Shown here: one piece after another, positions 927 through 63,536 of the stretch
Layout of the letters: the number at the start of each line of letters is the position of its first letter
How positions within the stretch are numbered: the stretch's first letter is position 1
Assembly (NCBI GenBank): GCA_963922205.1
Contig: CAWUHX010000083.1
Location: 1 to 64,000 of the forward strand
Direction: 5' to 3'
Source of the DNA: Romanomermis culicivorax
Lineage: Eukaryota; Nematoda; Enoplea; Mermithida; Mermithidae
Length of the DNA stretch: 64,000 bases
Made by a program: the position numbers and the translations under genes
The notes under the pieces: generated by a model
What the model saw: the letters and a program-made list of their open reading frames with translations, nothing else
Told to the model about the DNA's origin: nothing
The model's database searches: none

Positions 927-3900
927 TTACTGCTGCTGCCCGCCGCCTCGGTAACCTCCTCGAGGTCTACCTTGATAGTACCCCCTCTGACCTGGTTGGC
1001 CTCGGGTCTGACCTCCATCTTGGCCTCTATTTTGGCCTTGTTGGCTTCCGCCGCGTCTACCTAGCGGCATAAAATTCGGATTATGGAATTGAGCATCCGG
1101 GTCTTGACCTTGGTGTTGCCAGGTTCCTCGGCCTCTGTAAGGTCGCTGAGGGCGCCCTCTGAAGCCTCCCCTGGGTTGACCTTGGTCATACCCCAGTCTA
1201 GCCCTGTACGGGGCCGGGTTTGAGAACATATCGTCTCTCCCCTGCTGCCTTTGACCACTGCTAGTGGAGCTGCTGCGTTGCGGTTTTTGTGTCCGGTAAG
1301 TTGAATTAAGAGATTTAGATGAAATTGATTTTGACCGAGAAAGCGGACTTTTGTAAGAAGTGCTAGCAGCTTCACTATATGACCTCTGGCTGGTCGTAGC
1401 CGATGATTGTTGTATCATCGGTGGTTGTTTCTTAGCCGGAGGGAGTCTAGGCACCTTGAACTTACTCGGGCTCTTGGCAGCCGTTCGCTGGAATTTATCA
1501 GCTTGCGACCTGTCATCGCCTGGTGCCTTCCTCTTAACACCCATCTGGTTTAACCTTTGCGAGCCCATAAAAATATACTGATTAAAGGCTGCAATGTAGA
1601 CATCGTCTACGCGGTTTCCCTGGGCCTCAACGACTAGTTGTCTGTTCGCAAACGAACACGCCTGGGCATACCACCTACCAATTGCCGTTGGCGTGATCGG
1701 AGCGAAGTCCAACTGAAGAAAAATCATTAGGGTCACATACCTAATGGCCGTAAAGACGTCTGAGGCATCGTAGTCCTGAAGCCATCTGGGGATGAGAATT
1801 AAAATTATCCATTCCCAGATCTCCTCAGGGATGCGCTCTCCGTCAAACATAAATCCGCTTTGCATTTCGAATTGCTGGCGGTAATTTTCGTGAATCTCGG
1901 CCATGGCATCATTGACCATTCTGTAAATTATCGGCCGTTCTTGCCGATCAAAGGCGAAGTAATTGGCGACCTCTGGATTTTCGAATGAGATCGGCCCAAT
2001 TAAACGCCTTTGTTCCCATTGCCACTCCCAATAATCAATCAGAGTTTCGGCTAATTGACCAGGAGTGACAAACTGCTGTGGTTCCCTTTCGGGTCTACTA
2101 GCTACCACATTCAGTTTGACCTTCTTGATCAATTTCTCCTCCGATTCAAGATCGGGCTTCACCAATACGCTTCCCGCAGGTTTGCTACTTCTTGCGGTAT
2201 AGCTGGAGGGCACGGATTTACTTTTGCCAGAAGAAGTACTAACCTCTCCGCCGGTTTTCGATACCGTTCGCGTCTGAGTGTACGATGTTGTCGCAGTGGA
2301 CCCTGTTGTCCTATCCGATTTTGTCTGGCCTATGGAGGTCTCCGTTCGCGTCTGACTTTTTGAAGTCTCCGTTCTCGTCTGACTCTTTGAAGTCTCCGAT
2401 CTCGACTTTTGGCTCGTCGAGTATTGTGGGGTCGTCGTTTCTTCGGCCGTATCGTAGGCGTCATTTTCGGATCCGGTGGCGGCCGCTCCTTGTTGCTGCT
2501 GTCCTTGAGCTGCAAGTCTGCGTCGCTTGGCCTTACCTATCCTCTTTCTACGCCTTACCTTTTCCTTGGCTAGGTGTCGGATAAATTTTTCTGACATACC
2601 TTCAGCTAACATCTGCTGAACTTTGTCTGGGGAATAAATTCCAGGAATACCTTCCTCGGCAATTCTTCCCCTCCGCATCAGCTCTGTCGCTGCAATGGCT
2701 GAATCTGAGCTATCGTCGGCTAGTGCCTGCTCCTTCAGCTTTCTTTGGATTGCCCTCTGACGCAGGAATTCCTGCTGCGTCAGCCTTCTCTGTTCTTGAA
2801 TTTTGGCCTGTAGGGCCTCTTGCTTCGCTTGACGGTCATGATCCTTAGGATCTTTGGCCTTCACAGGTATCTCCTGGGATGCTTCCTGCATCTTCTCCAG
2901 TCTGACATCGATCCCTGACATTTTGGTGACTGCTTCGTTAATTTGAGTCTGGATTTTTTCCTCCTCAAGAGCCTGTTTCTGAGTTTTGGCCTCCATCGCA
3001 TCCTTATTCTCTGATGTCTGGCCCTCAGATTCCAGAATTTCACCCTCTTCTTCTTCTTCTACATCCTCCTCTGAACTGGACTCAGAGTCTGAATTCCGTA
3101 TCTTCGGCAACAGCTGCTTTACTTTAGCCGGCAAAACAGCTGGTGCTGGAGGTACTGATTGCATTATGGTGACAACCTCTGGCTCAGGCTCGGCCGGCTG
3201 TTGTACTTGAGGTACTTGAGTCGGCTGTGCCACCGCTGGTTGGATTGGCGGCGGCACCACGACAACTACTGCAGCTGCCTGCGTAGCAGCAGTGTCCAAA
3301 GCTGGTGTAGCTTTGACCACTGGCGCTAGCGCCTGCGGCTGCGCTTTAACCTGTCCCGTCCCTCCGGCTTGCGCCGTTTGGGAAGTTGAGGGACGATTTA
3401 CCGGTACCTTTGATATTAACTCACCGGCTGGGGTATATGTTAATGTATACCCGGGCATTTCCGAAGCGATTGTTCTCTCCCGGAAGCTTTTACTGACAAA
3501 CTCCGGTCTGAGCTCGAGCGGATTTCTTGGTGCGTAGGTAATCGGGTAGTCGGTTGGCGATGCGTCTTCCATCATGGGATACCGCAGTCCCGGCGTTAAA
3601 GTCTCGAAGCCTACGTAGTAAAAGGTTACATAAAAATAAGGATTTACCTTGTAGGCTCCGTCCTTCAATAACGATTTGTCGTCGCCAATTTGTAGGATCT
3701 CCTCGGCTTCTCGAAATCGTAGCGGGACAAAACCGAACCGATTCTGCCATGCGTATACCCCTTTTTTAGATGGAAAGCGGGGTTCCGATGGCGGTAGCGT
3801 CGCTGCTAACTCTAAATAGTAAGCCAGGCGGTCGCCTGACTTCCAGGACATTTTCTTTATCATTTCCTGGCCTTCCTTAGTATAACTATTTAGAAAGTTA

Positions 3901-5360
3901 TAATTTAGCAGAGCCCTAGTTTCATAGTCGCACTCCGCTCTGGAATGAGGCCATGCCAAATGATAGGCCAATGGCATAAATTTGCAGATGACCTCTAACT
4001 CTGGGAAGTTTCGCTCATCCAGCATACCTGAAATTTTTGCCAAGTTTGGCGTGTAAAAATTGGTCTTATAGGCCTGTCTATGGCCCTCGATACCCACTGG
4101 GTAGTGGTTATTAGAGGAAAACACCTCTTGTGGAATGGTATCGGGCTTCCCGGCTTGTTGCCAGTATAGCTTGGCGTTTTCGTACAACGTTAAAGAAATT
4201 TTCCCGTCTAAATCCCAGTAGGTTCCACCTGACTTGAGATTTTCCAGGATATCTTTTGAAATGTTAACCCAGTCTGGTATCTGGACATCCTGGATTTCGT
4301 CAGGATCACTGTCTTCAGTGTATCCGTCGTCCTTCATCGGCTTACCATCTCTGGGGAGTAGTGGATAGAAACCACTTGGCAGCTGAACTCCCTGCGGACG
4401 AACTGGATTACACTCCGTGGGCGCGGTATAATAACCTGTGTTATTTCCCTGCATCTGTACCGCCCAACGGTTATACATCTCACACTTCATCATGTGATAG
4501 ACCATATTTGGTTGAACCTGATCGGTTTCCATAACTGGGGTACCTAGCCCCATTTCTCGATTCACATTGCCCGGAATCATTAGATATTGTTGATAAAAAT
4601 GCAGGGCAATGGTGTTGATCTGTTTGGGATCCACCTTGTCATGGTCGAAAATCTGCATTTGCATAAGCAGTTGATCGGCCATGCCATAGTGAATGGCGGC
4701 AAACATGACCAATAAGGAGTAGTATGCGTCTAGAGCGGCGTATCTGAGCTCTTCCGGCAATATACCCCTTTTGGCAAACCGATCACGGTTCGCTTTTAAC
4801 GAAAAGTCATATTGGTAGGGGCCCACGTCTATCAAATAAAATTCCGTGAACAGTCCCTTTAACCGAAAGGTTTCGGGACATATACCTGTCTGAAAGCATT
4901 TTTTCTCCAGGTTTACTCCTACCATGGTGAGGGCGAAACGGTCTAAGTCAAAGTATCGACCTTTGGTCTTTCTTAGAAATTCCCGTAAGGGGACAGTTTT
5001 GTCCCTGTCCTTATTATCTCGCCCTGCGCCACACACGTTATAGATACTCACCAGATCCTCCAGTACGGCATATCGGGCGAAAAGCATGTCGGAGTTCAAG
5101 AAGTCGTGGAGGCTGGTCCACTCTTTGATCATCATCGATGTTGTATCAATAACGTAGGTTTGACCATTCGTTAGCGCGAAGCTGATATATCGGGCAAACT
5201 GCTTTCCCATTGGATTGTCGACCTCCCTTGTTTTGAACAAGGCGGCGACCTTATCCTGGTTGACTTTTTCAACATCGAAGCCACAAACTGGTTGTCCTCT
5301 GAAGATTGACACTTCTCGGATAAAATGGAGTACCTGGCTGACCTTCCCGATGTCTACCAT
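927..5360 (-). CDS. Family A ORF3: large protein with RNase D/WRN-like 3'-5' exonuclease domain and RGG tail
   Basis: This is an intact 1477-residue ORF in the place where env would normally sit, downstream of integrase. The N-terminal 230 residues show the three exonuclease motifs of the DEDDy family in order: motif I GFDVE (D29, E31), motif II around LEDLVSIY (D102), and motif [15 protein letters not shown] (Y207, D211). All four acidic residues and the tyrosine are present, so the fold may be catalytic. After this come a middle domain of unknown type, a Pro/Ala/Gln-rich linker, an acidic Ser/Glu stretch near residue 750, Lys/Arg-rich helices, near-repeats of TETSKSQTR, a second folded-looking region, and a C-terminal Arg-Gly-Gly/Gln tail typical of RNA-binding proteins. 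The frame stays open about 32 codons upstream of the ATG, to a possible splice acceptor at 5456-5457, so expression from a spliced mRNA is plausible. No signal peptide or transmembrane segment is seen, so it is not an env. The family assignment is inferred from motifs. Confidence 0.8.
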
Positions 5361-5455
5361 TCGAGGTTCCTTGGGATTGGCCGGCCAGTACCCAAATGTG
5401 GCTTTAAACCACTGATCCAGTTCGTGGATTTGTACGGCCCGTTTGACGTTATAAT

Positions 5456-5457
5456 CT
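5456..5457 (-). promoter_or_regulatory. Candidate 3' splice acceptor for ORF3
   Basis: On the minus strand a T-rich tract ending in tttag precedes the open frame that leads into ORF3. The frame is closed by a TAA shortly upstream, which fits an exon boundary here. Possible donors are the GTAAG motifs in the 5' LTR. This is inference only. Confidence 0.3.
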
Positions 5458-6679
5458 AAACATAAAGTACTATTAATTTTAGTGTTTTATTCCCCTTTTT
5501 TCAGCGCATTTTCGGGTCTATACTACACCAGCACCACAACACCAAGCGGGTTAAGTTTAGCAGAAAATTAAGTTTAGTGCAGGTTGTTAGGTGAGCCACT
5601 GATATACAAACATTGAGCTGGTAGGCAACTAACACCTTACCAAATCTTACCCTTGCTACCTCTATATGTTGAGGAGGGTAGACCTGATCCGATTGTCCAC
5701 CACTTGATCGGACACCAATCTCTGACCAGCTGCTTGAGCGACCAACTACGCTCCATTTATGGCACTGTATTTACAATTTTTATAGCGCTCGAAATTGATA
5801 ATTTTTAATGAATTTTATATCGAAAAAGTGATATGATTTGATTTGAAAATAAATAATTTTTGATAAATTTTTGAATGATAAAACTTTAAAACGGGCTGAA
5901 CCCAAGGTTCTAGGTTTCCCTTGAATCGTATAGCTCTCGGTGGTATCAGGTATATTTCCAAGTTTGGAAATTCCCTGCTTGGCTTCGAGCTTCCGCTTCT
6001 CAGTACTCCCATTTTTTGTTCCCTCTAAGTTCTAACCTCGTCTGCCCTTTGGGGCGCCGAGCTGGTCTTCCAGTGACTTCTGGGCATTACCTGCGGTTTC
6101 CAAGAATATTTGATAAAAATAAGTTCGAAACTTACCGTCGATGAAGAAAAAACGATTATCTTGGCGGTGCTGGGCCCTGCCAAATTCGACGTGGTGCTCT
6201 GTGTGCGACCACTCCCGCGTCGGAGCTTGTTGGCGGTTCCGCGCGCCCTTTCCCATCTCTTTTCGTTTCGAAATTTTTCTTTCGATGGATAAATTTATAA
6301 ACTTTAAAAATTTTTTGAACGCTGAAAAAGTTTAATCTAGCAGTTCTGCTAATTTCCTTTTTATCGCGATTCGGGGAATATTTTACTTCTTCCTTCGGAT
6401 GGAAGTTTAGAGTTCAGATAAGCGGGGCAGCTATAGTTTGATTTTAGAAAAAATGAAAAATTTGAAAATTTAATTTTTTGGAAAAATATCCGAAATATTT
6501 TGGGTTGTCACTTTGGTCTAAAATTCCGAAGAATTTTACCCAAAGTCTGAGATTAATATGAAAAATTAACAAAATTAATACGAATACTACATAAAGGCGA
6601 TAAATATTACAAATTAATACAATTTTAATTAAAATTAGTACTTACACGCGCGAGATATGTACATAAAATAAAAAAAAAA
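5458..6679 (-). other. Family A spacer between integrase and ORF3
   Basis: About 1.2 kb lies between the end of pol and ORF3. It is AT-rich with only short unrelated frames, the longest about 74 codons at 6032-6256. No known domain is recognised. It may be an intron or an untranslated spacer for ORF3 expression. Confidence 0.45.
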
Positions 6680-8803
6680 TCAGCGCGAGATCGCGCATAG
6701 ATTCGCCTTGAGCGAATTTTCAAATGATTTCATTTGAATCGGCGCTCCAGTCGTAACTGTTTGTGCCATATTGGAAAGTGACGTATTTTCGTCACGTGGC
6801 GCGTCCTGATTGGCTCGCGCTATTCGCGGCAAGACCCTAGTGGTCTCGTAGCGAAAATGTTTCAACCTGCTGATTGAAACTGTTTGGCGATTTAGCGGGT
6901 TGTCCCAATGCACAATGGTGACAACGTTCTCTGCTTCTCGCGAAATGTCCGTAACTATGAACGGACCGGACCATGGTAGTCCTAGTTTTTTCTGCTTGTC
7001 TACTTTGAGCAGAACCCAATCCCTTTCTTTAAATCCATTTTGTTTGGACTTTTTATCGAAGTATTTCTTCGATTTTTCGGCAGCACTCTGGATATTTTTG
7101 GCAATATCCTCGTAAAGGTTGACTAAATGATTTGTCAACACAAATTTGTATGCCTCAGCATTGCTGTCCGGCATTACAATATCGTATGCTTTCGATAAGT
7201 TTAACCCGAAGGTTGCCTCATGACCTCTAAGCAACGAGAATGGGGATTGCCCCGTGGCTGCATGTGGTGTGGCATTATATGCAAACACCACGGCTCTCAA
7301 GTATCTTGGCCAGTTGTCTTTTTCCTCGATGGCCACCTTTCTGAGCTGTTTGATGAGTGTCTGGTTGAACCTACCATTTCCTTGTGGGTGGTAGGCTGTT
7401 GTAAAAATTTTTTGACACTCCAATAACTTGCAGATCTCCTTCATTAGATCTGAGGTAAAACAACCTCCTCTATCGCTGAGTAGTCTCCGTGGAGTCCCGT
7501 GCCTAAATACAATAGCTTGTAGAAAAGTATCTACAACGGTGCTAGCTGACTGATCCGGGATCAGTTCAGCTTCAACCCACTTTGTAAAATAGTCTTGAAA
7601 GACTATGACATACGGTCTCTTCTCACTGAGTGGAGAAATACCCACGATATCCACTGATACTATGTCAAAAGGACCTTGTGGAATAATTGGTATCAGTGGC
7701 GGAATTTCGGTGTTTCCCTGATTAGCCATTTGACAAACTGGACAAAACTTGATCCAGTGCCTGACATCCTTTTCAATTCCAGGCCACCAGAACCGTTTTT
7801 TAATCATAGCAAGGGTTCTTTTGAACCCCTGATGAGTCATCATTACGGCACCGTGGTACTGGTACAAAGTATTGTCCCTAAGGCAGGATGGGACGACCAC
7901 CTGATCATCCGATCCCTGTCCGGCTTCGCGGTATAACACTTCATTTTGGATATAAAATCCACTATGATACTTGGTTGTCCCATTCGGACCCAATCTATCA
8001 AAGTATGGTCGTAGTACCTCATCTTTTCTCTGCAAGAGGGCCATGAGATCATCTCTAATTAGCCCTTTTGGTAATTCATCTTCTTTAGGGTCTGCCAAAG
8101 TAAACTCCTGTTCCTTTTCTGGGTATAACCAGGTTACTCTTTTTTCCTTACCTTTGTCCTGGTTTCCCCTACTTACCTTTTCGTTGACCTGATTGCCATC
8201 AGGCTGGATCTGAGCCTGATTGCTCTTCTCCGCTTCCTTCACCATGCTCCTTGTAGTTACGGCATTTATCAAGTCTGCAGGCGAGTTTGATTCTGGATCA
8301 CCCTCAGAATCTTCTGGATAAATTTGAGTGAATCTCGGACTTACTTCAGTCCTCTGATTATTCTTACCTTTTGGCTCCGGATATAACGGAGTACCGTCTT
8401 CAGGATTCCGATCTGTCAGAATTCTGAATCTCTTCACCAAATTGAGATGTTTTTTCTCAATAAGCTGTGCCTCAAGATCTTTCAGATTTTCGGACTCTCG
8501 TTTATCCTTTGAGAACATGTGTTCCCATTTCGGCGGTATCTTTTCTGCTTGATCGTCTGGTTCATCCATCCTGGACAAAAAGTCTGCCATGGCATTTTGT
8601 TTTCCAGGCACATACTCTAGTTTGTGGTTGAACTGAGAGATGAATGAGTACCATCTCTTCAACTTACCATTGGTCATGGCGTTAACCTTCATTGACAACA
8701 AAGGTTTGTGATCAGTTCTTATGATCACCTTATGACCCACTAAGTAGTGCTTGTATAACTTCAAGCCATACACAATTGCCAAGCACTCCCTTTCCGTGGC
8801 TGA
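6680..8803 (-). pseudogene. Family A pol, C-terminal part: RNase H end and integrase
   Basis: The frame continues pol after a TAG at 8804-8806. It begins with the rest of RNase H (SATERE, then RTDHKPL, then NAMADFLSR) and a roughly 230-residue charged linker. The integrase zinc finger follows (H310, H317, C347, C350, counted from position 8782), then the catalytic core with D378 (VSVDIVG) and D437 (LLSDRGG). The third catalytic residue is missing: after YHPQGNG the protein goes straight to RFNQTL, where this family normally has three more residues including the glutamate. The shortening is in frame (9 bp, near 7367-7376). A C-terminal domain with a chromodomain-like position follows (WSGPFIV and onward). 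Integrase from this copy should be inactive. Confidence 0.85.
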
Positions 8804-9526
8804 CTACTTTTTCTCATCCGCTTTTAAAATTCTGCTATTATAAGCAATTACCCAGCGGTCTGACTTGGTCTCCTGGTAAAGGACTGCTCCTAGTGCCGTT
8901 CCGCTGGCATCTGTCTGAAGGACAAAGTCCGCAGACCCGTCCAAAACCGGATACCTAAGGAATGGCACAGACAAAAGTGCTTCTTTCAGGCTCCTAAAAG
9001 CCTGATGGTGATCATCCATTCTAGGAATGGGATACTTATCATCCTTGGTAACGTCATTTATACCCCTAAAGTCCACTACTGGTCGCTTGGTACCATCCTT
9101 TTTACCTACCAGGAATAACGGAGCTGCCCAAGGCGACTTTGATGGCTCAATTACACCCTTCTTGAGCATATCTTGCACATGCTCACGAACATGTGGCCGT
9201 AAATTTATAGCGGTCCTGTGGTACCTTTTGGCCACAGGGGCTGCATCGCCTGTATTGATTTTACAGGTCAGGTAGGGTGTAGTAGTTGGCGGATCATTGG
9301 GCAAGCTGAACACGTCTCTATATTTTGCGAGACACCGTAGAGCTTGTTCCAATTGCCCTGATGGTATGTTGGATTTAGCCAGCATATTGTACAAAGCTTC
9401 CTTGAATGTTTTCTCATCGGATTGAGGAGCTTCAAGTCTAGCTTGAACTGCACAAGTTTGCAGCTTCTCCAGATCCTCAACTATTTTCCCCTTGAGTTGA
9501 TCCTGGTTATCAGTATCACACAACAC
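8804..9526 (-). pseudogene. Family A pol, reverse transcriptase with its catalytic core deleted
   Basis: The N-terminal RT motifs are clear: KKGVIEPSKSPWAAP, KRPVVDFRGIND and YPIPRMDD. Immediately after (junction near 9010) comes HHQAFRSLKEALL, which belongs to the connection region after RT, then the first RNase H motif QTDASG. The palm and thumb, including the YxDD box, are gone, a loss of very roughly 170-200 residues without a frame change. The frame ends at TAG 8804-8806 where a tyrosine codon is expected (ADEKK-stop-SATERE). The upstream edge is a TAA at 9527-9529 in the same frame as protease. This copy cannot make a working RT. Confidence 0.88.
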
Positions 9527-10588
9527 TTAATTAGTATGGCCAATTATTTGATTTCTTTTCAAATGGCATCCTGATCCTGTGTTGTTGGATACCATAACAA
9601 CAAAATCATCTTTTGTACCATCTACTATGGTACTATCAATGTGGAACCTTTCTTCATTGTCTTCAGACTCTATTATGATTCCATTAAGGCGATTTTCGCC
9701 TACCTTATCCCAAAGCTTTGCTCTCAGAAGTATATCAGTACCACTAGGTAAGTAGATGGGATTCACACTCACCACTGGTACCGAAACCTTTAGCAGGCAA
9801 ATCTTTGGCTGGTATTGGTCGGCGGCGCTCATCGTGGATTCCCCGGCGCTCGTGGTCATGACCTCTCTACAATTGGATTGGGGCTGGTCCGGCGTCACGT
9901 ATATCTGTTGTTGACGGTTGTTGAGCGTCATCGTCCTATTCCTGAAATCTATTATGGCTCCTACCTGAGGATGAGCCAAAAAGTCTGTACCCACAATAAC
10001 ATTTTCACCTGCTTCAGGAATTACAATTGCTTTAACGGGGAACTGTCCACACAATGTATCCATCCTAAATTGGATATACCCATGGGCTTGGACTGTCTTA
10101 CCGTTGGCTACAGTGACATTTAATATCCTGGGATATTCAGTATAATCTGGGCCCAAAGTTTCTTTCAGAAACTTAGCCGACATGACAGTGCACTGAGCTC
10201 CTGTGTCAATTAAAGCCATTGTCTTACGACCTCCTATAACAACCTCAATGTGGAATGGGGCTGTTCTGGGGTACGTATCCAGCAAATGTTGTTCCTGAGG
10301 ACTAGCTGGTGTGCCTCTCCTTATTACTTGTACTGATGGTACTACAGGTTGTGGTGCAATTGCATTCATTTGCACAATACTACCTAATACAACATTTGGG
10401 CAATTCACTCTCTGGTTTACTTCACCTGACGGACTCATTTGAGATTGCCTTGCAACCATAACACTCGAATAATCCTTCTGAGGTGGCTGATTTGTGAATT
10501 GACCCTGTTGAAGAGTCTGAGTCGGACCCATAATAGCCTGAGGCGGCTGAGGTTGCTGTAATGCAGCTTGTTGCTGATATTGCTGCAT
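9527..10588 (-). pseudogene. Family A pol, aspartic protease region
   Basis: A retropepsin-like core is visible: MALIDTGAQCTVMS with the catalytic DTGA, followed by the typical NVIVGTDFLA segment. A Gln-rich N-terminal region links it to gag in the same reading frame across a TGA at 10649-10651. It is closed by TAA 9527-9529 before RT. The role is cleavage of the Gag-Pol polyprotein. Because gag, protease, RT and integrase share one frame, the element probably once made a single long polyprotein, and the stops are either decay or suppressed codons. Confidence 0.8.
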
Positions 10589-10648: not shown

Positions 10649-12094
10649 TCAATTCTGTTGATAACTCTCGTGGCTATCCTGATAACCTGAATAGCCTACA
10701 TTATACGCACCTCTACCTCTGCTATTATAGTTGGCATTTGGGTAACCTCCTCTACCTCTATAGTTACCTCGAGCAAAAGTGTTGAAGCCTCCCCTGTTGA
10801 AGGTAGGGAAGCTGGCTCTACCTCTGCTCCTGCGCTCGGACAATACTCTCAATGTCCTGCAGTCTGCAGTATTATGTGTTATGTTCTTGTGGAACTCACA
10901 CCATGGCTTAGTCGGATCTCGGGAAACTTGACCTCCCTGACTGGTACTAGGTATGGCCACATCAGACCGATTTTCCATTTGCCTGTTATCAACCTTTTGC
11001 TGGAGCTGGTCGAACCTTTCGACCAGTTGTACCATCTCTTTAGAGATTTTCAATAGAAGAGATTCTTTCTTACCTTTTTCGGTCTGAGCCCTAGGGGCTT
11101 CCCGAACTGGAATCTCCTCTATTTCAGGAGAATCACTCCTTGACCTTTGGGTTTGGGCCTGCACCTGATTACCTACGGTTTGATATGGTTGCCGAAACCT
11201 TTGCCTCTGGCCTTGTTGATATCCTTCTGACTGGTTCCTAGCAACTACGGCAATTTCAGGATCATGCCCACTAGGCATACCTACTTCATTAATTACTATA
11301 GGATCCTGTTGTGTACCCTTGGGTCCATATCTCTGGAAGGCATTCCTATATCTGCGTTCGATGTCATGAACTTCAACTGCTAAATCATACCAAGTTCTAA
11401 AGGTATGTTTTGAATTCTTAAGTTCAGACTGGAACGTGGGGTCACTCTTATATATGAAGGTGTCAATGATCAGTCTCTGTTTAGACTGGTAGTCCAAATC
11501 ACCTTTAACTAGTTCCACTAATATACTGACCCTTTTTGAAAACTCTACGGCCTGTTCATTGGGTCTTTGTTGGATCTCAAACAATTCCCTGGTTAACATT
11601 TCCAGGTTACACTCAGGTGCAAAGACATTAATAATGGCTCTCCTGGCCTCCCTATAGGTCATGTTGTCTCCTGCAACAGCCTTCGGTCTACCTTTAGAAA
11701 GCCTCAGCAGTGCTTCATACTTAGCTGATTCGGGTGTATCCCTACGGAATTCCCCTTCAAGTGCTGTTAAGAAGCTAAGCACCTGCTGATTTACCATACC
11801 CTCATCTAAAAGTTTGGGTAACACACCTTTAACGATATTCCTGACTACAATCTCCTGTGCCAAATTATTTGATGGCACTTCCCTCTGATCATAAGCTGCT
11901 GTTAATACTGGATCAAGATCAGAGTTCAGGGATTGCAGCATAACCCTATTTGGATCTCGTTGAGGTGGTACACCTCCTTGATATGATGGCATATTGTCTT
12001 TGTCAAACCTGTAATCCCTATATGGGAAACATGCCAATTGATCTGGTCTAAGGGTATTTGGATCAACTATATTTCCTCTACCATCATAGACCAC
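10649..12094 (-). pseudogene. Family A gag, main part (capsid and nucleocapsid)
   Basis: This is a 481-residue frame with a Ty3-type capsid-like helical region (around [21 protein letters not shown] to [13 protein letters not shown]), a charged linker, and a zinc-knuckle-like motif [15 protein letters not shown]. The knuckle spacing is C-x2-H-x4-H-x4-C, with His replacing the second Cys of the usual CCHC. An Arg/Gly/Tyr-rich tail follows. Open frame continues upstream of 12094 to about 12,300, so the first codon shown is not the true start. It is joined to the N-terminal gag frame only by a frameshift, and it ends at TGA 10649-10651 in frame with protease. Confidence 0.8.
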
Positions 12095-12380
12095 TCTAGT
12101 TAAAGTTGGATGCTGCGGAGCTATCTGACTTTGATTCCTGAAGTCTGCCGATTGCTCAGCTCCTTCGAATCGAAGGTCTCTAGCTGGACCTCTCCAACTT
12201 TTGGGCTCAAAGTTAAGCCTTTGCCCTTCATCAACATCAGGCCTATTACTAGGCCCTGCGCCTGCACTTATTTCAGCAGCGAGACGGTTGTCTCTTTCTG
12301 CACCCCTATTGCATGGTCTAACCTGTCTATCCGGCTCCTGTCGGCTTCCCTTTTGTTGTCCTCTGTGGCGGCATTTGCAA

Positions 12381-12908
12381 TTATGTCGAACAAAGCTTCG
12401 ACGACAACTCGCGTAGCTGCGTCGCCAACTCCTGATTGGACATCTCGGGAGCTCTTTCCTGCGGTTGGAATCGCTCTTGTTCCTGGGGAATCCTCTCTAA
12501 TCTTTGATCGATTTCGGGGTCCCTTTCTTCGAAATTTGGTCGAATTTCGGGCGTAACGACGTCCCTTTTTGGTCCTGCTAATTCGACCTTTGGCGGCGGT
12601 GACCTTTTGAAATTTTGCTGCGGCGGTCCATCGGCGTCTGGGTTCGGATTCGCCGGGCCTGCCTCCTGCGGATCGATGGCAATCGCTGGCGGTCGGTCAA
12701 TTGGTACGCCTGCATCTTGAGGCGTAAAATGCATTGCATTTTGTTGCAATGGTTGAACCCTCGCGGGAGTTTGATCTGGGATCACTGGGTCCGGAGCAGC
12801 ATGCCGTTGCTGATCTCTGTCTCCCAAATTGACTAGATTCCCAGCACTCGCCACTCTGGGTGGTGATCTACGTAAAGTATTACCTCTCGGTATCCTTTCG
12901 TTAGGCAT
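12381..12908 (-). pseudogene. Family A gag, N-terminal part
   Basis: This 175-residue frame starts at ATG 12906-12908 (MPNERIPRGN), 11 bases after the stop of a short upstream ORF. The same start and sequence are found in the second copy at 63633, supporting the start choice. The protein is Pro/Asn/Gln-rich and ends in a heptad-like segment. The frame stops at 12381, and neighbouring frames carry the continuation, so at least one indel lies between about 12,420 and 12,260. Confidence 0.75.
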
Positions 12909-12919
12909 TTTAAATCCTG

Positions 12920-13102
12920 CTAACTTTCTGTAGAAACCTGGAGGATTTTCTTTTCTCCTAGTCTGACTACGAAGTTCCGTGGTAAGGAGTTAAAAGTCAC
13001 CACTTGTTGTGCAGGTCTTTCCTTAAGAGGCGTAAGAAAAGATTGGGTCTGAACTGACCTGTTAGAACTGATACCTTGGCTAAGCCTCGGTGATCTGTGC
13101 AA
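12920..13102 (-). CDS. Short upstream ORF across the LTR/PBS junction of family A
   Basis: This 60-codon ORF stops just before gag ATG. It is present in both family A copies; the last 36 residues, from SFLTPLKER to LQVSTES, differ at two positions. Both differences in that stretch are nonsynonymous, so there is no sign of selection on the protein. It may be only a leader ORF affecting gag initiation. It contains the PBS. Confidence 0.3.
   Translation of the reverse strand: MHRSPRLSQGISSNRSVQTQSFLTPLKERPAQQVVTFNSLPRNFVVRLGEKKILQVSTES
12986..13002 (-). other. Primer-binding site of family A copy 1
   Basis: On the minus strand the LTR ends CAACA, then two bases, then TGGTGACTTTTAACTCC. A start with TGG complementary to the CCA end of a tRNA is what a PBS needs. 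The second copy has the same site with one change (63539-63555). The tRNA was not identified. Confidence 0.6.
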
Positions 13103-13621
13103 CAGTCCGGTTATCCCCAGACCTACAACAACAAAGATACACTTTGTTCTGAATACGGGGGCCTTACCAAAGACCTCCGCAGTCTCCTAGATGAGACAAG
13201 GAATCCCCTCAGGGATAAACTTACTTGGGTATAACCCGGAAGGGGTTTCCCAAAACTTACTTGATGTAAGCCGGCGCCTGGGCCTTTGGCCCTCGGCCTT
13301 CGTCGATCGCTAATAATATCTAAATAAACAAACGAATATATTAAACAATAAGTCCGACGAATTATGCAAAAAGAATGTGGGTATACCACAGTGAATAACT
13401 CAGTAAGAAAACAAGTTGCTGGGAAAATTGTATTTAGGGACGCCAGCAAATATGTCAAAAATATAATGAAAACGATATAAAGTGAAGAATGACTTTCACT
13501 ATCTTTCTTGGTCTTTTGGTGGCGCTCCATTCTATGCAAATGTCTGCGCCGCTGGTCGTCCCTGTCGTCGATTTGCATGTCGATTTCCCCACACGAATTG
13601 GCATCAACAGGGTGCCCAACA
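13005..13621 (-). repeat. 5' LTR of family A copy 1 (complete, 617 bp)
   Basis: It starts TGTTG at 13621 and ends CAACA at 13005 (minus strand), a perfect 5-bp inverted repeat. The limits are supported by the second copy (62923-63536) and by a diverged solo LTR at 22908-23453. It contains a conserved stem-loop (gtctc, six-base loop, gagac; about 13180-13196) and several GTAAG donor-like motifs in its 3' half. Confidence 0.88.
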
Positions 13622-22900: not shown

Positions 22901-25900
22901 AAGCAATTGTTGTGCAGGTCTTTCCTTAGAAGTAAAGAAAAATGGTTGTTCAGATATAGTGCAACAGTTCTCACACAGACCTGGAAACAACAACCACTAA
23001 TACTAACTAACGGGCCCTCACAGAGTAGACCTCGAAGACTCCTAGAGGAAAATGCATACCCATTAGAACAAATGATATAGAAGAGTCACTCTAGAGGTCT
23101 GTCTTCTGTGTGATGTCTGCAAGAGACGACGCCTGGGCCTAAAGCCCTTCGTATACCTACAGTATGCCGATGCAATATGTAAATAAATATAGTACACAAA
23201 TAATAATGTTAAGAATGTGGACAGACCACTAAAATTATTATGCCAAACAGACACTGGGATAAAGTTTATTCATGGGTGCTGGCATAAACTACCAAAATAT
23301 AACTAAAAAATGAAATATTAATTTTCATGATAATTTTTTTTCTTTCTTTGACGCTCCGTGTCTATGTAAATTTGTCTACGCCACTAGTCACCCATCGTTG
23401 ATTTGCATATCGACTTCCCGATTGCAGAATGGGCAGCAATAGGGTGCCAACATAATTTTGATGCATTTTTTAGAGATAAATTAAATTACCAATAACACTA
23501 TCCAATTTGCCCAAACCGTCATTGTTAACTACATTTTGGATTATATGTGCCAAGCAATGTAGGCTTGGTAAGTCAAAAATTCAAAATCCAGCCGCCATAT
23601 TCAAACTTCTATCTCGTAAAATCATTTGTGTTTTTTCGAAGACACTGTTCTCTTGCAGCATTTTGGACTTTTTCGGGCCAACATTTTCCCTAGTATGTCC
23701 ATCTAAACAAAAATGATGAATCAAAAATAATTTATATTTAAAGTGAAAGAGAACACAAAAGATTGAGTGACATTCATCACCTGGAAAATACGAAAAGCAC
23801 AAAATAAGTTCTTCTCGTTTGAAGTCTTCATTTATGTAATGGCAAGTAAGGCTACAATAACTTTCCAAAGTGACCGGAAGACCAAATACCACATGTGAAT
23901 GCTAAATATTTATGTTCTTCCAAAAAAGAAACAATTTTTGTGCAAATTATTTTGTGCAGGGATAGAATTACAATTTCCCAAAAATAGTGACGTTTAGGAC
24001 TTTTAAATTTTGGTGCAATGTGTTTCATAAGCTCTAAAAAACCTTCATCTTCTACAATAGAAATCAGCTGTTGATCTAAGCAAATAAACCGTGTAATTTT
24101 CCGAATTAAAGCTTGGGAACTTTCATGGTCGATGTTCCAAGCTTTTATAAAACTAGCTTTTAAAGTCATTTGATTCGTATTATTTGTATCATTTTTCACT
24201 GCGTGAAGTTCATTTTTCATTTTTTCTGCGGATTTCTGCTCGCCTAAATATTTCCCATTAATCGGTGGATGGGTCGCCAAGTGTTTTTTCAGGCTGCTGT
24301 CCCCGAACCCATGTTTATCTTGACCACCAGCCTTTTGTTCGTCAGTCGTCGAAATGGTAAAAAAATTATATATAACAGCAAAATGATTAAAAGTCGTTAT
24401 TCTTCAAAATTTATGTATAATTTGACTAAATTAAAGAATGAAATCTGCAAAAAAACAGAAAAATAAATATTGTACATACGGTCCAGAACATATTTATGAA
24501 TAGATTATGTTAATAGCAAATATTGAAGGACACAAGATTCATAATAAATAGGTCAAAAAACATGTATGATTGGCACCGGCACTGGCACAAGTTCTTAGGC
24601 ACCAGCAAAAAAGGTGGCGCCGGGATGTCCCTGATTGTAACCTGCAAAAACTGACACAAAAAGTTTTGGCAAAGCCGCCAAAACTTTTGTACTGCAAGAA
24701 ACGTACGCTAGCATTCATTAAAACATCGATCGTGCTTTTCGAACAAATATCTTTGGTTTTGGGGGAAATTAATAAAAATATTTGGTCAAAAATTCGAATA
24801 TTTTGGTAATTTAGAAAAAGCCTCCATGTCTTGTCTACTCTGTCAGCCAAAAAATCTTTCTATAATGCGTTTTTATATTCTGCTTTTTACTTCTCTTACA
24901 AGGGTGGCAATTCTACTGTTGTTGTGCAAATACCACCGAACGCGGAAGTCGTGAAATCGACGAGTACTTGTGGCTATAATGTCATCACGGCAACTTCTGA
25001 AAGCGACGAACAAGTTATACAATTGAAATTTAAAATTCAATCGAGCGACTGGTTCTTGACGCTGAATTTTACGAATAATTCTATTTTGGCGCACATACCG
25101 ATCGATCAGTATCCATCCCTGGCTTACTATGCTCGACTGGATTACGTCGCAGACGCATGGACTTTCGTGAATGTCTCAAAACCCAACGAAAGTGAGTTTC
25201 TACAACGCTTATGTAGATAAAAGAAATTAGGCTACGTTTCTCATGTAAGTTGGGTATGTTTTTCATATCCATTTGATTATTTTGGATGAATCTTACACCC
25301 ACGGAATATTGACTTGTAAAGAGTGAATTTGCGCGCCACTAAGATATTTTTAAGATACAGACAGGGCCGTTGTCTTTTATATTTTAGAAATAACGTTGCA
25401 AAATTTGGTCAACAAAACTAGTGGCGAAGGTGCTTTATCCCTGTTCAAATCGGATACGACCCATTTCTATCGCTGCAATGGCGAAGAAAAGACGCCGGTG
25501 GTGGAAGGTTTCGAAATATGGACCAAAAGTTTACGCGTCGAAGCTTTTCTCAATAATAGCACCACTTTGATGAAAGGTATAAAATATATTCATGTTAGAA
25601 TAGGCGTCTGCGTACTTTACCGCGTAATTAGTTATTTTTATCGATAGAACTGCTGATTGCATTTCTGACTGACACATCCAAAGGAATACATTTTTGGTTT
25701 CGGACCAGAACACTGTTCTTGGCATGTATGGTTTTTTTTACAGCCGATCAAGTATTGTATAGTTTCGATTGATTTGAAATAATTTTCACGCGGTGGGTGG
25801 TCTTGAACTTTTAAACAGACTTGACAGAAATCAATTTAAGTTACGGGTTCCGATGTCTTTAAGTTAGAATAGTGTTCACACCAGTTTTATAGTTTATATA

Positions 25901-55749: not shown

Positions 55750-56543
55750 GTCTGGGATTCACACCCAAACATTCCTATAAAATTACGTGAAGTACTTTAT
55801 TTTGATCCGTTCACACCCCGGTAGCCCAATTAAGACGCCCTAATTAATTTGCACAAACGGCAGCTGTTCCCCTAGAACCTACACTGAACTACACATTCCA
55901 CAGCTACCGTAATCCCCCCGTAAAAATCGTAAACAACACCTGCACACAGTAAAACACGTAGAAGCCCCGCCAGACAGTAGTCTCAAGTGTAACGGTAGCG
56001 GCGGCCCCACAAAACATGTGTATACAGAGAAACTGATACAGGAAGCATGCACAGAAGCACAAAGGTGTGGCCAAGCCCACCGTAGAAAGCAAGCGAAGCA
56101 CAGAAAGCATACAGTACCAGAGCGTTAGAAAGGCGTAACTAAGAAAAGCATAAAAAGTGTAGCAGGAAATGACGATTGGCGGAAGAAGATGGACAGAAGC
56201 TTGACCTCCCGCGACGCCCAGGGAGTGGCCAAAATCGCCGTATAAAAGAAGAAGCAAAGCGTGATTTGATCATTCTTATTCTTGTGGTTTTACGTTTTTG
56301 ACTTCCGCGCTCGCCCCATCCTTTTTATACATTTGCAAGCGGCCAATTATCCAAAAGCAACTTAAACCGAGGCCCCCCGTTCGTATTATAAATCAAAACG
56401 CGTTTGTATTGTTGACGTTCAAGCGACCATTGATCATTTGTATATTATCGCCCCGTATTGTACCGCCGTGCCCCTTTTTTTGTCCCCGCCGTATCGACCA
56501 ATTGGTTAGAAGTAAAGTACCTCACACAAATCTGGTCGTTACA
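55750..56543 (+). repeat. 5' LTR of family B (left edge approximate)
   Basis: It ends ...cgttaca at 56543, just before the PBS. A TATAAAAG at 56240 followed by the likely R start near 56272 fits a U3/R/U5 layout. The left edge at tgtctgggattc (55750) is a guess from TGT...ACA ends; no second LTR is available for comparison. Confidence 0.45.
56240..56247 (+). promoter_or_regulatory. TATA box in family B LTR
   Basis: cgTATAAAAGaag is a strong TATA box; transcription would start about 25-32 bases downstream, near tcattcttattc. Confidence 0.6.
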
Positions 56544-56548
56544 TATTT

Positions 56549-56562
56549 TGGTGACCGTACCG
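56549..56562 (+). other. Family B primer-binding site
   Basis: TGGTGACCGTACCG lies six bases after the LTR end ttaca. This is the TGGxGACC form seen in many Ty3/gypsy elements. The tRNA was not identified. Confidence 0.5.
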
Positions 56563-56786
56563 TTACGTTAACCACTGGAACTCCCTGCCCCCAATTAGGT
56601 GTACTCTTATCCGGGCATTTAGAAGCATTAGATAATACAGTAGTAATCATTTCCTACAGTAAGACAGTATTCATAGAAAGCAAACTGGAAATCCCCTCCA
56701 ATGAGACATTAAGCGATACATTTAAACGAATACAGCGTGAAGCAAAAATTGAAGCATTTAAGCAGAAATCCCAACGTAAACCAAGA

Positions 56787-58571
56787 ATGACCCACCAAAC
56801 GCAAGATCATTTAGGAGAAATCGTTAGAGAGCAGATAAACGATTTATTTTCAGAACATTTTCGTACCCTATGCACACAATTGAATCAGAATACAGTAAAC
56901 CCTACCCTAATAGATGATCTAAGAACAGCAAACATTCGTAATAACATGGCAAATAATTTCTACGCGAAACCTACAGTATTCACGGGTGGCATGACCCAAC
57001 ATTTTGGTGAATGGAACAAAAGATTAGAACAATTCATGGCACTCCAAGGCATGAAAGATACAGACGTACAGTTAAAGTTGGCATGTTTAGAAATTCATTT
57101 AGGAGGAGCCGCATTAGCAAAATTCAAAAGTTTAGCAAATTCTGAAAACCCTCCCCACACATACGAGCAGTATAAAGTCGCATTACAGGCATTTTTCCCA
57201 AACAATAGAGATAATGAGCTACATCAACAATTCTTATGCGAAAGAAAGCAAAAGTGATCAGAAACAGTAACAGAACTCTTATTTGATCTAGAACATCTCG
57301 CAACCCTCGCCTACCCTAACTTTAACACAGACGCAGGAGAAATGATCATAAAACCCCTCTTTGTAGAAGGCATGCAAAACGAAATCAGGGAAGCAATTAA
57401 GTATAGAAGGTTCGCAACTTTAAAAGAAATGTCAGACGAAGCAGCTTACATTGAACAGCAAATCCTTAGAAACGAGTTAAAATCTAACATCCTTCCCTTC
57501 ATACCCCCAAAACCCGAACCCATCTTTTCCCTAACCAAAAACACAGACCAACAGGACCTTTTGCATCAGTTAGAACAACAAGCAAAAGATTTACAGTTGC
57601 AGATCAAACAAAAACTTCAACCCCCACAACAGAGTAGCTACAACAATTTCAGTAACAACACTTACAGTAGGAATAATGCTTACAGGAACAATACCACCCC
57701 TAGGCAGCCCACATGCTTCCAGTGTGGACAAATTGGACACGTAGCTCATAATTGTAAATCAGTAGGCACCCGAAAATCATGTGAAATCTGTTTCCGTAAT
57801 AATCACAGTACGCGTGATTGTAAAAGCCGATGCATCCACTGCTCCCAAACAGGACATAGATCAGATAACTGCCTTTCAAAACCCTGCTCCAATTTTCAAT
57901 GTTTCACATGCAAGCAGAGAGGTCATACAAGCAGGTATTGCCCAAATCAGCAGAGTCGTAATATTCAAAATTGCATTGAGTACAGGCAACCCCAACCCCT
58001 CATGGACATTGATGACCCCGCATTTTACTCAAAATTACCCGCCATAACTAACGGCCCTCAGACTACTTTAGGAACTATCATGCCCAACACCCACCGCCGT
58101 AGTGACGAATACGTCCTTGATCTGGACATACCCGATTGGTGCGCCATGTCACCATTCCCCACGCCTGAAGCCGCAAAAATCGAAAAATCGCCGCCCACCA
58201 TCCCCGTAGGCTACAAGATCCCCCAAAAGCAAGACACTACGCCGCCCACCGCCCCCGAAACGCCGTCGAAAGCAGGCCGCAACTTGTTGTCCCTTTTACA
58301 TAGCCTGACCCCCGAACCCTACCAATTCCACCCCGCCAAACATTGCTACCAACCCCCACAAGTAGGCAAGTCCAAACCCCATCCCATGACTCAATTTCTA
58401 AAATTTTACAGACCGTTCAGATTTCAAACCGGCCACCCCCCCAGCTCAAAACCGCAAAACGACAACACCAAAAGCCGCCACGCCAAATCGAGCAGAGCGA
58501 AAAAACACAGTGCCCCGCCGCCTCCACTAAAACATTCTATTGGCCGATGTTTTGTATTTTTCTTTGTATAA
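56787..58571 (+). pseudogene. Family B gag (one in-frame TGA)
   Basis: The first ATG after the LTR in this frame is 56787. The N-terminal part has a Ty3-type capsid region (NFYAKPTVFTGGMTQHFGEW and so on). A TGA at 57255-57257 interrupts it, and the same frame resumes as SETVTELLFDLEHL. Four consecutive zinc knuckles follow: CFQCGQIGHVAHNC, CEICFRNNHSTRDC, CIHCSQTGHRSDNC, CFTCKQRGHTSRYC. A Pro-rich tail ends at TAA 58569-58571 and overlaps the env frame by over 200 bases. The TGA is probably a CGA-to-TGA mutation. Gag forms the particle and binds RNA. Confidence 0.85.
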
Positions 58572-60294
58572 TAATCCCCACATCGTGTAGTGCCCAATTT
58601 CAGATGAGTGGAACTTCATTGAGTGGTCACTCAGTCAGCATACTCAAACTTGTATCATGCATGCCCCCTTCCACAGTAGACAAACCCATACAGACATTCG
58701 GAAAAATCTATATCCCCTCCACTAAGCCCCACATTACAGACGCATACAAATGCAGTGTTCGCAAACGCAAAATTTGTACTAATACAGGATTTTTTGGATC
58801 AAAAGGTATTGTCTTCGACCAAACCGAAATGCAAAATCTAACCCCACATGTTTGTAAGGCAGTTGTTATAGACAAAGAACACAACGGTCAAAAATTGTAC
58901 GAAACCCAACCAGGATTTTGGTCAACAAATAACTCCCTAAGCGTAGAATACACATGGTGTTGTACAGACCATTGTACCTCAGTCACTAACGTCATCATAG
59001 AAATAGGACAAATAGCATCTTGGAATGGAAAATCTATGACAGGTACATTAGGTGACCTGGGGTCATGCAAACCGAGGTCAGGTCATTGTGTCACAGCCGA
59101 CGGATCTATTATCTGGAATGAAACAGCATTTGAAAACTTATGCCCCTTCGAATACGAAAACACACATCCCATCAAACTCACACAAACCCACATGATAATA
59201 GAAGAGCTACAAGGTGCATTCTCGGTTGAAAATACACTCTTTTCGAACCCCAATTGCCCAGAAATCCAAGACAGCATTCTAACCGAACAAGGCATTATTG
59301 TACAATTAGACAAAAGCACCCTACATCGTAACACATTTTTAACCCCAAAAACCAACGAAACTCATACTACATTATACGATTTTGATGATTTTGAACCCAT
59401 TAATGCGAAACTAAACTATCTAGCAGACAAAATACAGGAATTCGAAATTCAAAATTTCAAAAACGTATGGAGTGAATTATGCAGACAGGCGCAGCGTCAC
59501 CTTGATCTCGTATGGCAAATTTTACGTCTTGATGCAACCCTTGGAGCGCAAGCATTCCTACAGCGAACAGACATCATAGCAGAATTCACAGGAGAAGCCC
59601 TCACAGTCTGGCCCTGCAAGCAGGTAAACGCATCCAAAGTCTTTTACAACCATAAAATCAACCAAACATGCTACAAACTTTTGCCCATTCTCACAGGAAC
59701 TGAACTCATGTTTTCAAATCCAGGAGGCAACGATTTGACCCCTTTTTCACAAACCATTGACTGCCATCACATGCATGTAGCCCTTTACAAACAGAATAAC
59801 ACATGGGTCAGTGAAACAGGATCCCCGCATGTCACAAATTTACCTTTAGAAATCGTCTGGAACCAAAATTTCTCCCTCTTCCATTTTAATACACCCGCCA
59901 TTTTTCATGATCAACTTGCAACTATTTCAACAAACTTACTTTTTTTGAAACAATACATTTACAAAACTCACACACTCGAAAACGTCGTCAAAAAACTCGT
60001 CAATTACACCGCCCAAATGTCTCTCAATTCTGATACAGTTTACAACATGATCTCAGGCACTGGCCAAGCACTGGGAAATACACTCTCTGGCGCCGGTCAA
60101 GGCATAGAACATGTAATAACCGGTACCACCCAAAGTCTCACAGACTGATTAAACAATTTACTCAAAGGACCTCTGCAAATCATTATTAATCTAGCCGTTA
60201 TTACTGTAGTTATTGCAGGCGTCTTTTATTTGTTTCTCGTTCTTCGAAAATATTTCCCCTCTCCAAAGCATCATGCCACAAACGAACATGCATA
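58343..60294 (+). pseudogene. Family B envelope-like glycoprotein, located between gag and pol
   Basis: The frame opens at 58343 inside the gag tail. A hydrophobic signal-like segment lies at about 58540-58600 (MFCIFLCIIIPTSCSA). The ectodomain of roughly 500 residues is rich in paired cysteines and in N-x-S/T sites, as expected for a viral surface protein. A TGA at 60146-60148 interrupts the frame just before a strongly hydrophobic membrane helix (about 60180-60245) and a short cytoplasmic tail ending at TAG 60292-60294. No furin-like site is obvious. The cysteine layout reminds me of glycoproteins of negative-strand RNA viruses of the chuvirus type, but this is only a guess. Signal peptide, glycosylated ectodomain and membrane anchor make the env call fairly safe. 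This copy would lose its anchor. Confidence 0.72.
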
Positions 60295-60374
60295 GGAAAT
60301 ACCATCGAACAGCAGACGTTTACATGAGACCATACCCCCATCATTCAGCCATGCTCTCTTAGAATTAGCTAATT

Positions 60375-62922: not shown

Positions 62923-63536
62923 TGTTGGGCACCCTGTTGATGCCAATTCGTGTGGGGAAATTGACATGCAAATCGACAAGGATGGACGACCAGTGGCGCA
63001 GACATTTGCATAGAATGGAGCGCCAAAGAAAGACCAAAAAGATAAAGTGAAATCATTGTTCACTATTATCGTCAATTTTTATAGTATTTTGTTATTGCTG
63101 GCGTCCATTAAAACTTCCCAGCACTTCGTCTTATTTTGCATAATATTCATTGTGGTCAGTCCACATTCTTTTACATATTTCGTCGGACATATTGTTTAAT
63201 ATATTCGTTTGTTTATTTAGATATTATTAGCGACCGACGAAGGCAGAGGGCCAGAGGCCCAGGCGCCAGCTTACACCAGGTAAGCTTTGGGAAACCCCTT
63301 ACGGGTTATACCCGAGTAAGTTTATCCCTGAGGGGATTCCTTGTCTCAGCTAGGAGACTGCGGAGGTCCTTGGTAAGGCCCCGCTTTTTAGAGTTAAGTT
63401 TATCTTTGTTGTTGTAGGTCTGGGGAACCGGACTGTTGCACTATCACCGAGGCTTAGCCAAGGGATCAGTTCTAACAGGTCAGTTCAGACCAGATATATC
63501 TTTTCTTACGCCTCTTAAGGAAAGACCTGCACAACA
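62923..63536 (+). repeat. 5' LTR of family A copy 2 (614 bp)
   Basis: TGTTG...CAACA. It is closely similar to 13005-13621 but with a variable block near 62980-63000 and near 63060-63130. It contains GTAAGC (63286), GTAAGT (63317) and GTAAGG (63376) donor-like motifs (positions approximate) and the gtctc/gagac stem-loop. Confidence 0.9.

Follow-up and report, generated by a model that had tools for sequence, protein, structure and literature searches.

Introduction

Extra open reading frames (ORFs) for exonuclease-like proteins of the DEDDy type are known from retroelements. In bdelloid rotifers, the long terminal repeat (LTR) elements Juno and Vesta carry a DEDDy ORF3 (Rodriguez, Kenefick and Arkhipova 2017, PMC5408684). 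The same paper reports DEDDy ORFs in Athena elements, proposes that they act in RNA 3'-end processing, with catalytic activity yet to be demonstrated, and finds that, within a genome, the extra ORFs evolve in a manner not significantly different from neutrality; a further paper, which cites it, counts the DnaQ-like exonuclease among the well-known accessory domains of LTR elements (PMC6338049). These sources, and PMC6431247 below, are drawn on in excerpt. Here, we describe an ORF3 of this kind in family A, an LTR retrotransposon family in the genome of the nematode Romanomermis culicivorax. The window analyzed comprises 64,000 nucleotides of contig CAWUHX010000083.1 (here C83) from base 1 of the contig (assembly GCA_963922205.1, 359 Mb in 595 contigs) and holds one copy at its left end. 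A sequence-only reading of the window had singled out this gene and knew of no well-described LTR family with a counterpart. As excerpted, the Juno and Vesta ORF3s precede it (PMC5408684; PMC6338049), and our literature search for LTR elements that carry a DEDDy or exonuclease ORF found no further report. The explanation that we find best overall, and hold with fair confidence, is that ORF3 is the DEDDy exonuclease gene of a Ty3/gypsy family, spliced in the manner of env, and that its product would be a nuclease acting on RNA 3' ends.

Results

A DEDDy-type domain at the N-terminus of ORF3

All parts of the window copy lie on the reverse (-) strand. The frame of ORF3 is open over 1519 amino acids (aa) and reaches position 5486; counted from the ATG at 5360 to the stop codon at 927-929, it encodes 1477 aa. 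ORF3 lies 3' of gag, protease, RNase H and integrase and inside the LTR sequences at 13005-13621 and 1-186. It follows integrase and precedes the LTR, which agrees with the env-like position assigned to it by the sequence-only reading. In residues 1-260 (4581-5360), D29, E31, D102, Y207 and D211 were found by script in the DEDDy order and with the motif III context, and this bears out the earlier description of a 1477-codon ORF with these signatures. The long linker and the RGG-rich tail described there are both present.

Homology was traced within the same genome. With an E limit of 0.01, a search with PF01612 (DNA_pol_A_exo1) yielded 91 matches, none of which is the window ORF3. Eighteen of the 91 loci were fetched and compared with the window domain by blastp. 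Three loci of a related family, family C, matched, namely L046 (1.4e-14, with two stops in its frame), L041 (E=2.3e-12) and L040 (1.9e-8); fourteen others gave weak matches (E 0.005-0.6) and L043 gave none. With PF01612, for which the cut-off is 23.6 bits, L041 (32.5), L040 (31.3) and the family B locus L032 (44.9) pass, and L043 (22.5) falls short. L041 retains all five DEDDy residues at 23-25% identity to the window domain. HHalign aligned the domains of families A and C with a probability of 96% (E=4.4e-9) and those of A and B with E=3.6e-5. The profile comparison of residues 1-260 proposed in the sequence-only reading therefore succeeds through L041 and fails when made directly: DEDDy membership rests on an intermediate, because family A matches L041 and it is L041, not family A itself, that passes PF01612. 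Judged from these alignments, the N-terminal domain of ORF3 is very probably of the DEDDy type.

The five residues are intact in 7 of 7 family A copies, window included, and in three of the four exonuclease-bearing copies that were selected by integrase (see below); in the fourth, Y207 is replaced by a stop. Among viral contigs, five pattern matches were seen, and none of them was confirmed as a relative.

Family A and its copies

Family A is an autonomous-looking Ty3/gypsy LTR retrotransposon of about 14.7 kb, in which gag-pol forms a single frame of about 2305 aa and is followed by ORF3 and the LTR. Its membership in Ty3/gypsy is indicated by the domain order protease, reverse transcriptase (RT), RNase H and integrase (Pfam, one copy), by TG...CA LTRs and by a short target duplication. 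The LTRs measure 614-620 bp, and Pfam detected no dUTPase family in the gag-pol of one open-frame copy.

Ten further copies were studied as separate pieces. They were picked from the top of a list ranked by exonuclease similarity and may therefore be younger than average. In each of the ten, ORF3 is a frame of 1517-1519 aa and the RNase H-integrase side one of 720-736 aa, and in nine the gag-protease-RT side is a single frame of at least 1524 aa (it is split in C69). The two LTRs are identical in C43, C25, C28 and C46 and 99.5-99.8% identical in C42, C58, C69 and C77; those of C75 are comparable over 112 bp only. Target duplications of 4 bp were found in eight of the nine testable copies, the tenth copy, C75, running into N. 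The copy without a duplication, C9, also has an LTR pair of only 88.7% identity and is for these two reasons probably recombinant. On the window contig, C83, a copy that begins at 62923 (the right-hand copy) is older, its LTRs being 97.6% identical.

In a genome search with the exonuclease domain, the best 142 of 3018 candidates were scored and all match. ORF3-type frames of at least 1440 aa are present in 106 of these 142 copies; in three of the 106, a stop was read through to reach this length. A search with integrase provides a selection independent of ORF3. Among the best 150 of 6748 candidates scored, a gag-pol frame of 2200 aa or more was found in 82 (in one case by reading through a stop). 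An exonuclease domain from the list of the first search lies 2.2-3.3 kb away in at least 106 of the 150 and in at least 70 of the 82 with long frames. Other family A copies with the ORF, for which the sequence-only reading had suggested a search, are thus many. Five of the 12 long-frame copies without a listed exonuclease were checked, and the domain was present in four and absent at its expected place in C113. One of the four, L141, has the stop at Y207, and one of the four has a stop upstream of the splice acceptor described below. The C113 copy (G000:C113:281905, L139) has a gag-pol frame of 2305 aa and no family A sequence at the ORF3 slot. The sequence-only reading had found it notable that ORF3 is intact while gag-pol is broken. 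This is true of the window copy but not telling: it is limited to one deleted copy, and long gag-pol frames occur in 82 of the 150 copies selected by integrase.

Selection on ORF3

The right-hand copy was found via its LTR without use of ORF3 and offers one unbiased comparison. Between it and the window copy, residues 1-260 show 64.5 synonymous and 9.5 nonsynonymous changes. The synonymous rate (dS) is 0.55 and the nonsynonymous rate (dN) 0.016, and the resulting ratio, omega, is 0.028, the lowest within ORF3. For the whole of ORF3, omega is 0.071, and for residues 261-680 it is about 0.05. The low-complexity and charged linker at residues 681-1100 (2061-3320) is under weaker constraint (0.09 for residues 681-900 and 0.15 for 901-1100). 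A C-terminal region without significant Pfam match, residues 1101-1300 (1461-2060), is constrained at 0.066, and the basic region with the RGG-rich tail, residues 1301-1477 (930-1460), has a value of 0.153. The comparison with gag-pol that had been called for in the sequence-only reading gave, for the right-hand copy against C43, 0.041 for part of gag, 0.049 for RT and 0.30 for protease.

Across the ten exonuclease-ranked copies and the window, omega is 0.056 for ORF3, 0.053 for RT, 0.073 for RNase H-integrase, 0.075 for protease and 0.213 for gag; the value of 0.008 for the exonuclease domain is biased because these copies were ranked by exonuclease similarity, and we relied on the right-hand copy instead. 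Closer copies gave higher and noisier values, as is expected when dead copies decay: omega is 0.03-0.27 between the window and L133-L137 and 0.12-0.54 between the window and four copies selected by integrase. The substitution patterns indicate that the exonuclease domain is under strong purifying selection, with all catalytic residues kept in nearly every copy examined.

Synonymous divergence of the right-hand copy varies along its length, from 0.09 (protease, against C43) to 0.55 (exonuclease, against the window), and this suggests recombination between subfamilies.

Predicted splicing at the start of ORF3

Residue M1 of ORF3 is Met in the window and in the ten exonuclease-ranked copies (11/11). 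It is Leu in four of the seven copies of a second set, window included, and in three of the four integrase-selected copies, which makes seven Leu among 21 distinct copies. Two of the copies with Leu, L133 and L134, lie in frames of 1529 aa. The next Met is residue 51, C-terminal of D29 and E31. Hence the ATG at 5360 is not a general start, since M1 is Leu in these seven copies and the next Met comes only after two of the signature residues.

Position 5455, the end coordinate given in the sequence-only reading, immediately follows a splice-acceptor-like AG. The acceptor-like TTTATGTTTAG occupies 5456-5466, with 5456 as the last intron base; its TTTAG end is found in 17 of 17 copies (window, right-hand copy, L133-L137 and ten others), and the preceding letters vary in some. 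A candidate donor, GAG/GTAATA, lies eight codons and one base past the gag ATG (12908) in 12 of 12 copies (window, right-hand copy and ten others) and agrees with six of nine consensus positions. In the window, GTAATA begins at 12883, and 12884-12908 would form the 5' exon of the ORF3 message. The splice phases are compatible, with one base before the donor and two after the acceptor. From these signals, we consider it likely that translation of ORF3 uses a spliced message, in which the first eight codons of gag are joined to an exon 2 at 5455 (927-5455), as in env expression. The gene model is corrected to the extent that the start of ORF3 is probably spliced.

Related families in the same genome

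The ORF of the family C locus L041 sits downstream of RT, RNase H and integrase, which is the slot of ORF3 in family A. The C130 locus (L128, L129) is a decayed family C element with RT, RNase H and integrase followed by a DEDDy ORF. Between families A and C, identity is 54% for RT, 47% for integrase and only 19-25% for the exonuclease. Beyond the exonuclease, the ORF3s of A and C showed no significant similarity (in the C-terminal comparison, the best of ten fragments was reached in 20 of 300 shuffles), and the N-terminal extension was no more similar to families B and D than shuffled sequences were.

Family B DEDDy ORFs were seen in two further settings. On C101, an open frame of 1055 aa (L130, 166-3330, minus strand) with RNase H and integrase zinc-binding matches and no RT match sits just upstream of such an ORF. 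In L044 (C105), a family B DEDDy domain follows a C-terminal RT piece, recognized by eye, in one open frame. Three PF01612 fragments of equal score at 182213, 187991 and 193769 of G000:C158 are spaced by exactly 5778 bp and are probably a tandem array.

Structure of the window copy and its surroundings

The window copy is a deletion derivative. Its gag (10652-12989) is in two frames with a weak Retrotrans_gag match and is followed by an aspartyl protease region at 9530-10588 (PF13975, 2e-10). At 8807-9526, the start of RT is joined to the RT/RNase H connection; the gap, between 9011 and 9012, has cost this copy about 582 bp of RT and with it the YIDD motif, a stretch that is present in 10 of 10 compared copies. 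RNase H and integrase (H2C2, rve) were identified with Pfam at 6683-8803. Altogether, gag and pol are spread across several frames. The 5' LTR (13005-13621) is 617 bp long and reads TGTTGGG...ACAACA, and the 3' LTR (1-186) is incomplete because the contig end falls inside it.

A diverged (about 70%) remnant of a family A LTR lies at 22908-23456. Another LTR element occupies 56298-63050 on the plus strand and is interrupted at 62923 by the second family A copy. It has a CCHC gag ORF and, between gag and the protease-RT-RNase H region, an ORF at 58343-60148 (+) that matches Monjiviricetes_fusion (PF24664, 3.8e-19). An integrase-like frame was seen by eye after the second family A copy, in L132.

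Discussion

In the explanation that we favor, a spliced message with a gag leader, predicted from the conserved signals, would yield the ORF3 protein. The protein would be catalytically active as a metal-dependent 3'-5' exonuclease; its RGG tail would keep it on RNA-protein particles, where it would trim or remove RNA 3' ends. The likeliest targets would be RNAs of the element or associated with its particles, or else small RNAs with which the host acts against the element. Catalytic activity of the domain is, in our view, quite probable. The choice of any particular substrate is tentative and each candidate doubtful. It is quite unlikely that all parts combine in an anti-silencing nuclease, i.e. 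a strongly selected, env-like spliced protein with a gag leader that would trim or destroy host small RNAs of the piRNA type as an active RNA 3'-end exonuclease.

The failure of a direct profile match could be taken to mean that the motif arose by chance and that ORF3, as an env-like or structural protein, does not descend from a nuclease. We rejected this candidate and regard it as largely refuted and very improbable: the domain is homologous to the Pfam-positive L041 (E=2.3e-12), which at 23-25% identity still has all five residues, omega is 0.028 in an independently found copy, and no fusion-protein or env-type Pfam family matched ORF3 in the window or in one further copy. A catalytically idle DEDD-fold protein resembling the metazoan proteins EXD1 or Maelstrom, which would package or localize element RNA or capture parts of the piRNA pathway, is unlikely in our view. 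The RGG tail and the long linker do suggest RNA binding, and EXD1 and Maelstrom bind RNA without catalysis (PMC5408684, as excerpted), but the five catalytic residues are kept in all seven A copies and in the diverged L041, and no part of ORF3 is under tighter constraint than residues 1-260. By analogy with the nidovirus exonuclease ExoN, an idea put forward in the sequence-only reading, the protein might instead proofread or trim cDNA ends and thus aid RT over a 14.7-kb element. The element is indeed large, and single-stranded DNA can be a substrate of DEDD enzymes (excerpt of PMC5408684). ORF3 is, however, predicted to be a separate spliced product outside Gag-Pol. Nidovirus ExoN moreover belongs to a different DEDD subgroup, and we consider this function highly unlikely.

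Several observations weigh against a spliced, constrained and active exonuclease. Pfam gave no direct match to the window ORF3 or to residues 1-270, searches of PDB sequences with the window ORF3 gave no relevant match, and HHalign of the window domain with a narrow enterobacterial RNase D profile was insignificant (E=0.21, or 0.1 with A and C together). The splice model has competitors, since M1 is retained in 14 of the 21 copies and donor-like sites with a better fit lie in the LTR and within gag. The exonuclease is missing at its expected place in one of the five checked integrase-selected copies, and some copies look relaxed or dead, such as L141 with its stop at Y207 and L140, which differs from the window by 6 synonymous and 12 nonsynonymous changes. 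Since the exonucleases of A and C are far less alike than RT and integrase, either the constraint on the exonuclease may in the long term be looser than that on pol, or the ORF may have been captured separately from related sources.

Comparison with known systems

Like the env of retroviruses and errantiviruses, ORF3 stands after pol and is predicted to be spliced from a donor in early gag. The env message of avian retroviruses likewise borrows gag codons. Unlike env, ORF3 has an enzyme-like domain instead of a fusion-protein match. With RNase D, WRN, Rrp6 and EXD1 (PF01612), it shares the five residues and the motif III context, and it is homologous to this group via family C. The distance from D102 to Y207 is 105 residues in ORF3; for E. 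coli RNase D, a count by eye from D85 to Y151, which we take to be the catalytic residues, gave 66. In contrast to cellular PF01612 exonucleases, ORF3 is not directly detectable with the profile and is fused to an extension of about 1200 aa.

Among retroelements, the Penelope-like Terminons and Athena elements also carry a DEDDy exonuclease ORF; Terminons are telomeric and endonuclease-deficient (PMC6431247, as excerpted), whereas family A has LTRs, an integrase and 4-bp target duplications. Juno and Vesta are closer, being LTR elements with a DEDDy exonuclease ORF3 after gag-pol. In the rotifers, DEDDy ORFs occur in distinct families and LTR ORF3s typically come from spliced messages (PMC5408684), and the same is seen or predicted here. 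Juno and Vesta have a dUTPase between protease and RT (PMC5408684, section 3.1), which the family A gag-pol examined lacks, and the LTRs of bdelloid elements are 159-551 bp long (PMC5408684), shorter than those of family A. Compared with Juno and Vesta as excerpted, family A differs further in its single gag-pol frame and high copy number (at least 142 copies) and in an ORF3 of 1477 aa that has other constrained regions besides the exonuclease and also an RGG tail. Family A ORF3 is thus a variant of the kind described in 2017 from rotifer elements and not the first of its kind. Its many open-frame copies and diverged subfamilies allow constraint to be measured, and the exonuclease is the most constrained part of ORF3. 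Why retroelements keep DEDDy enzymes, for which the rotifer ORF3s, as excerpted, had no demonstrated use (PMC5408684), becomes testable in this family.

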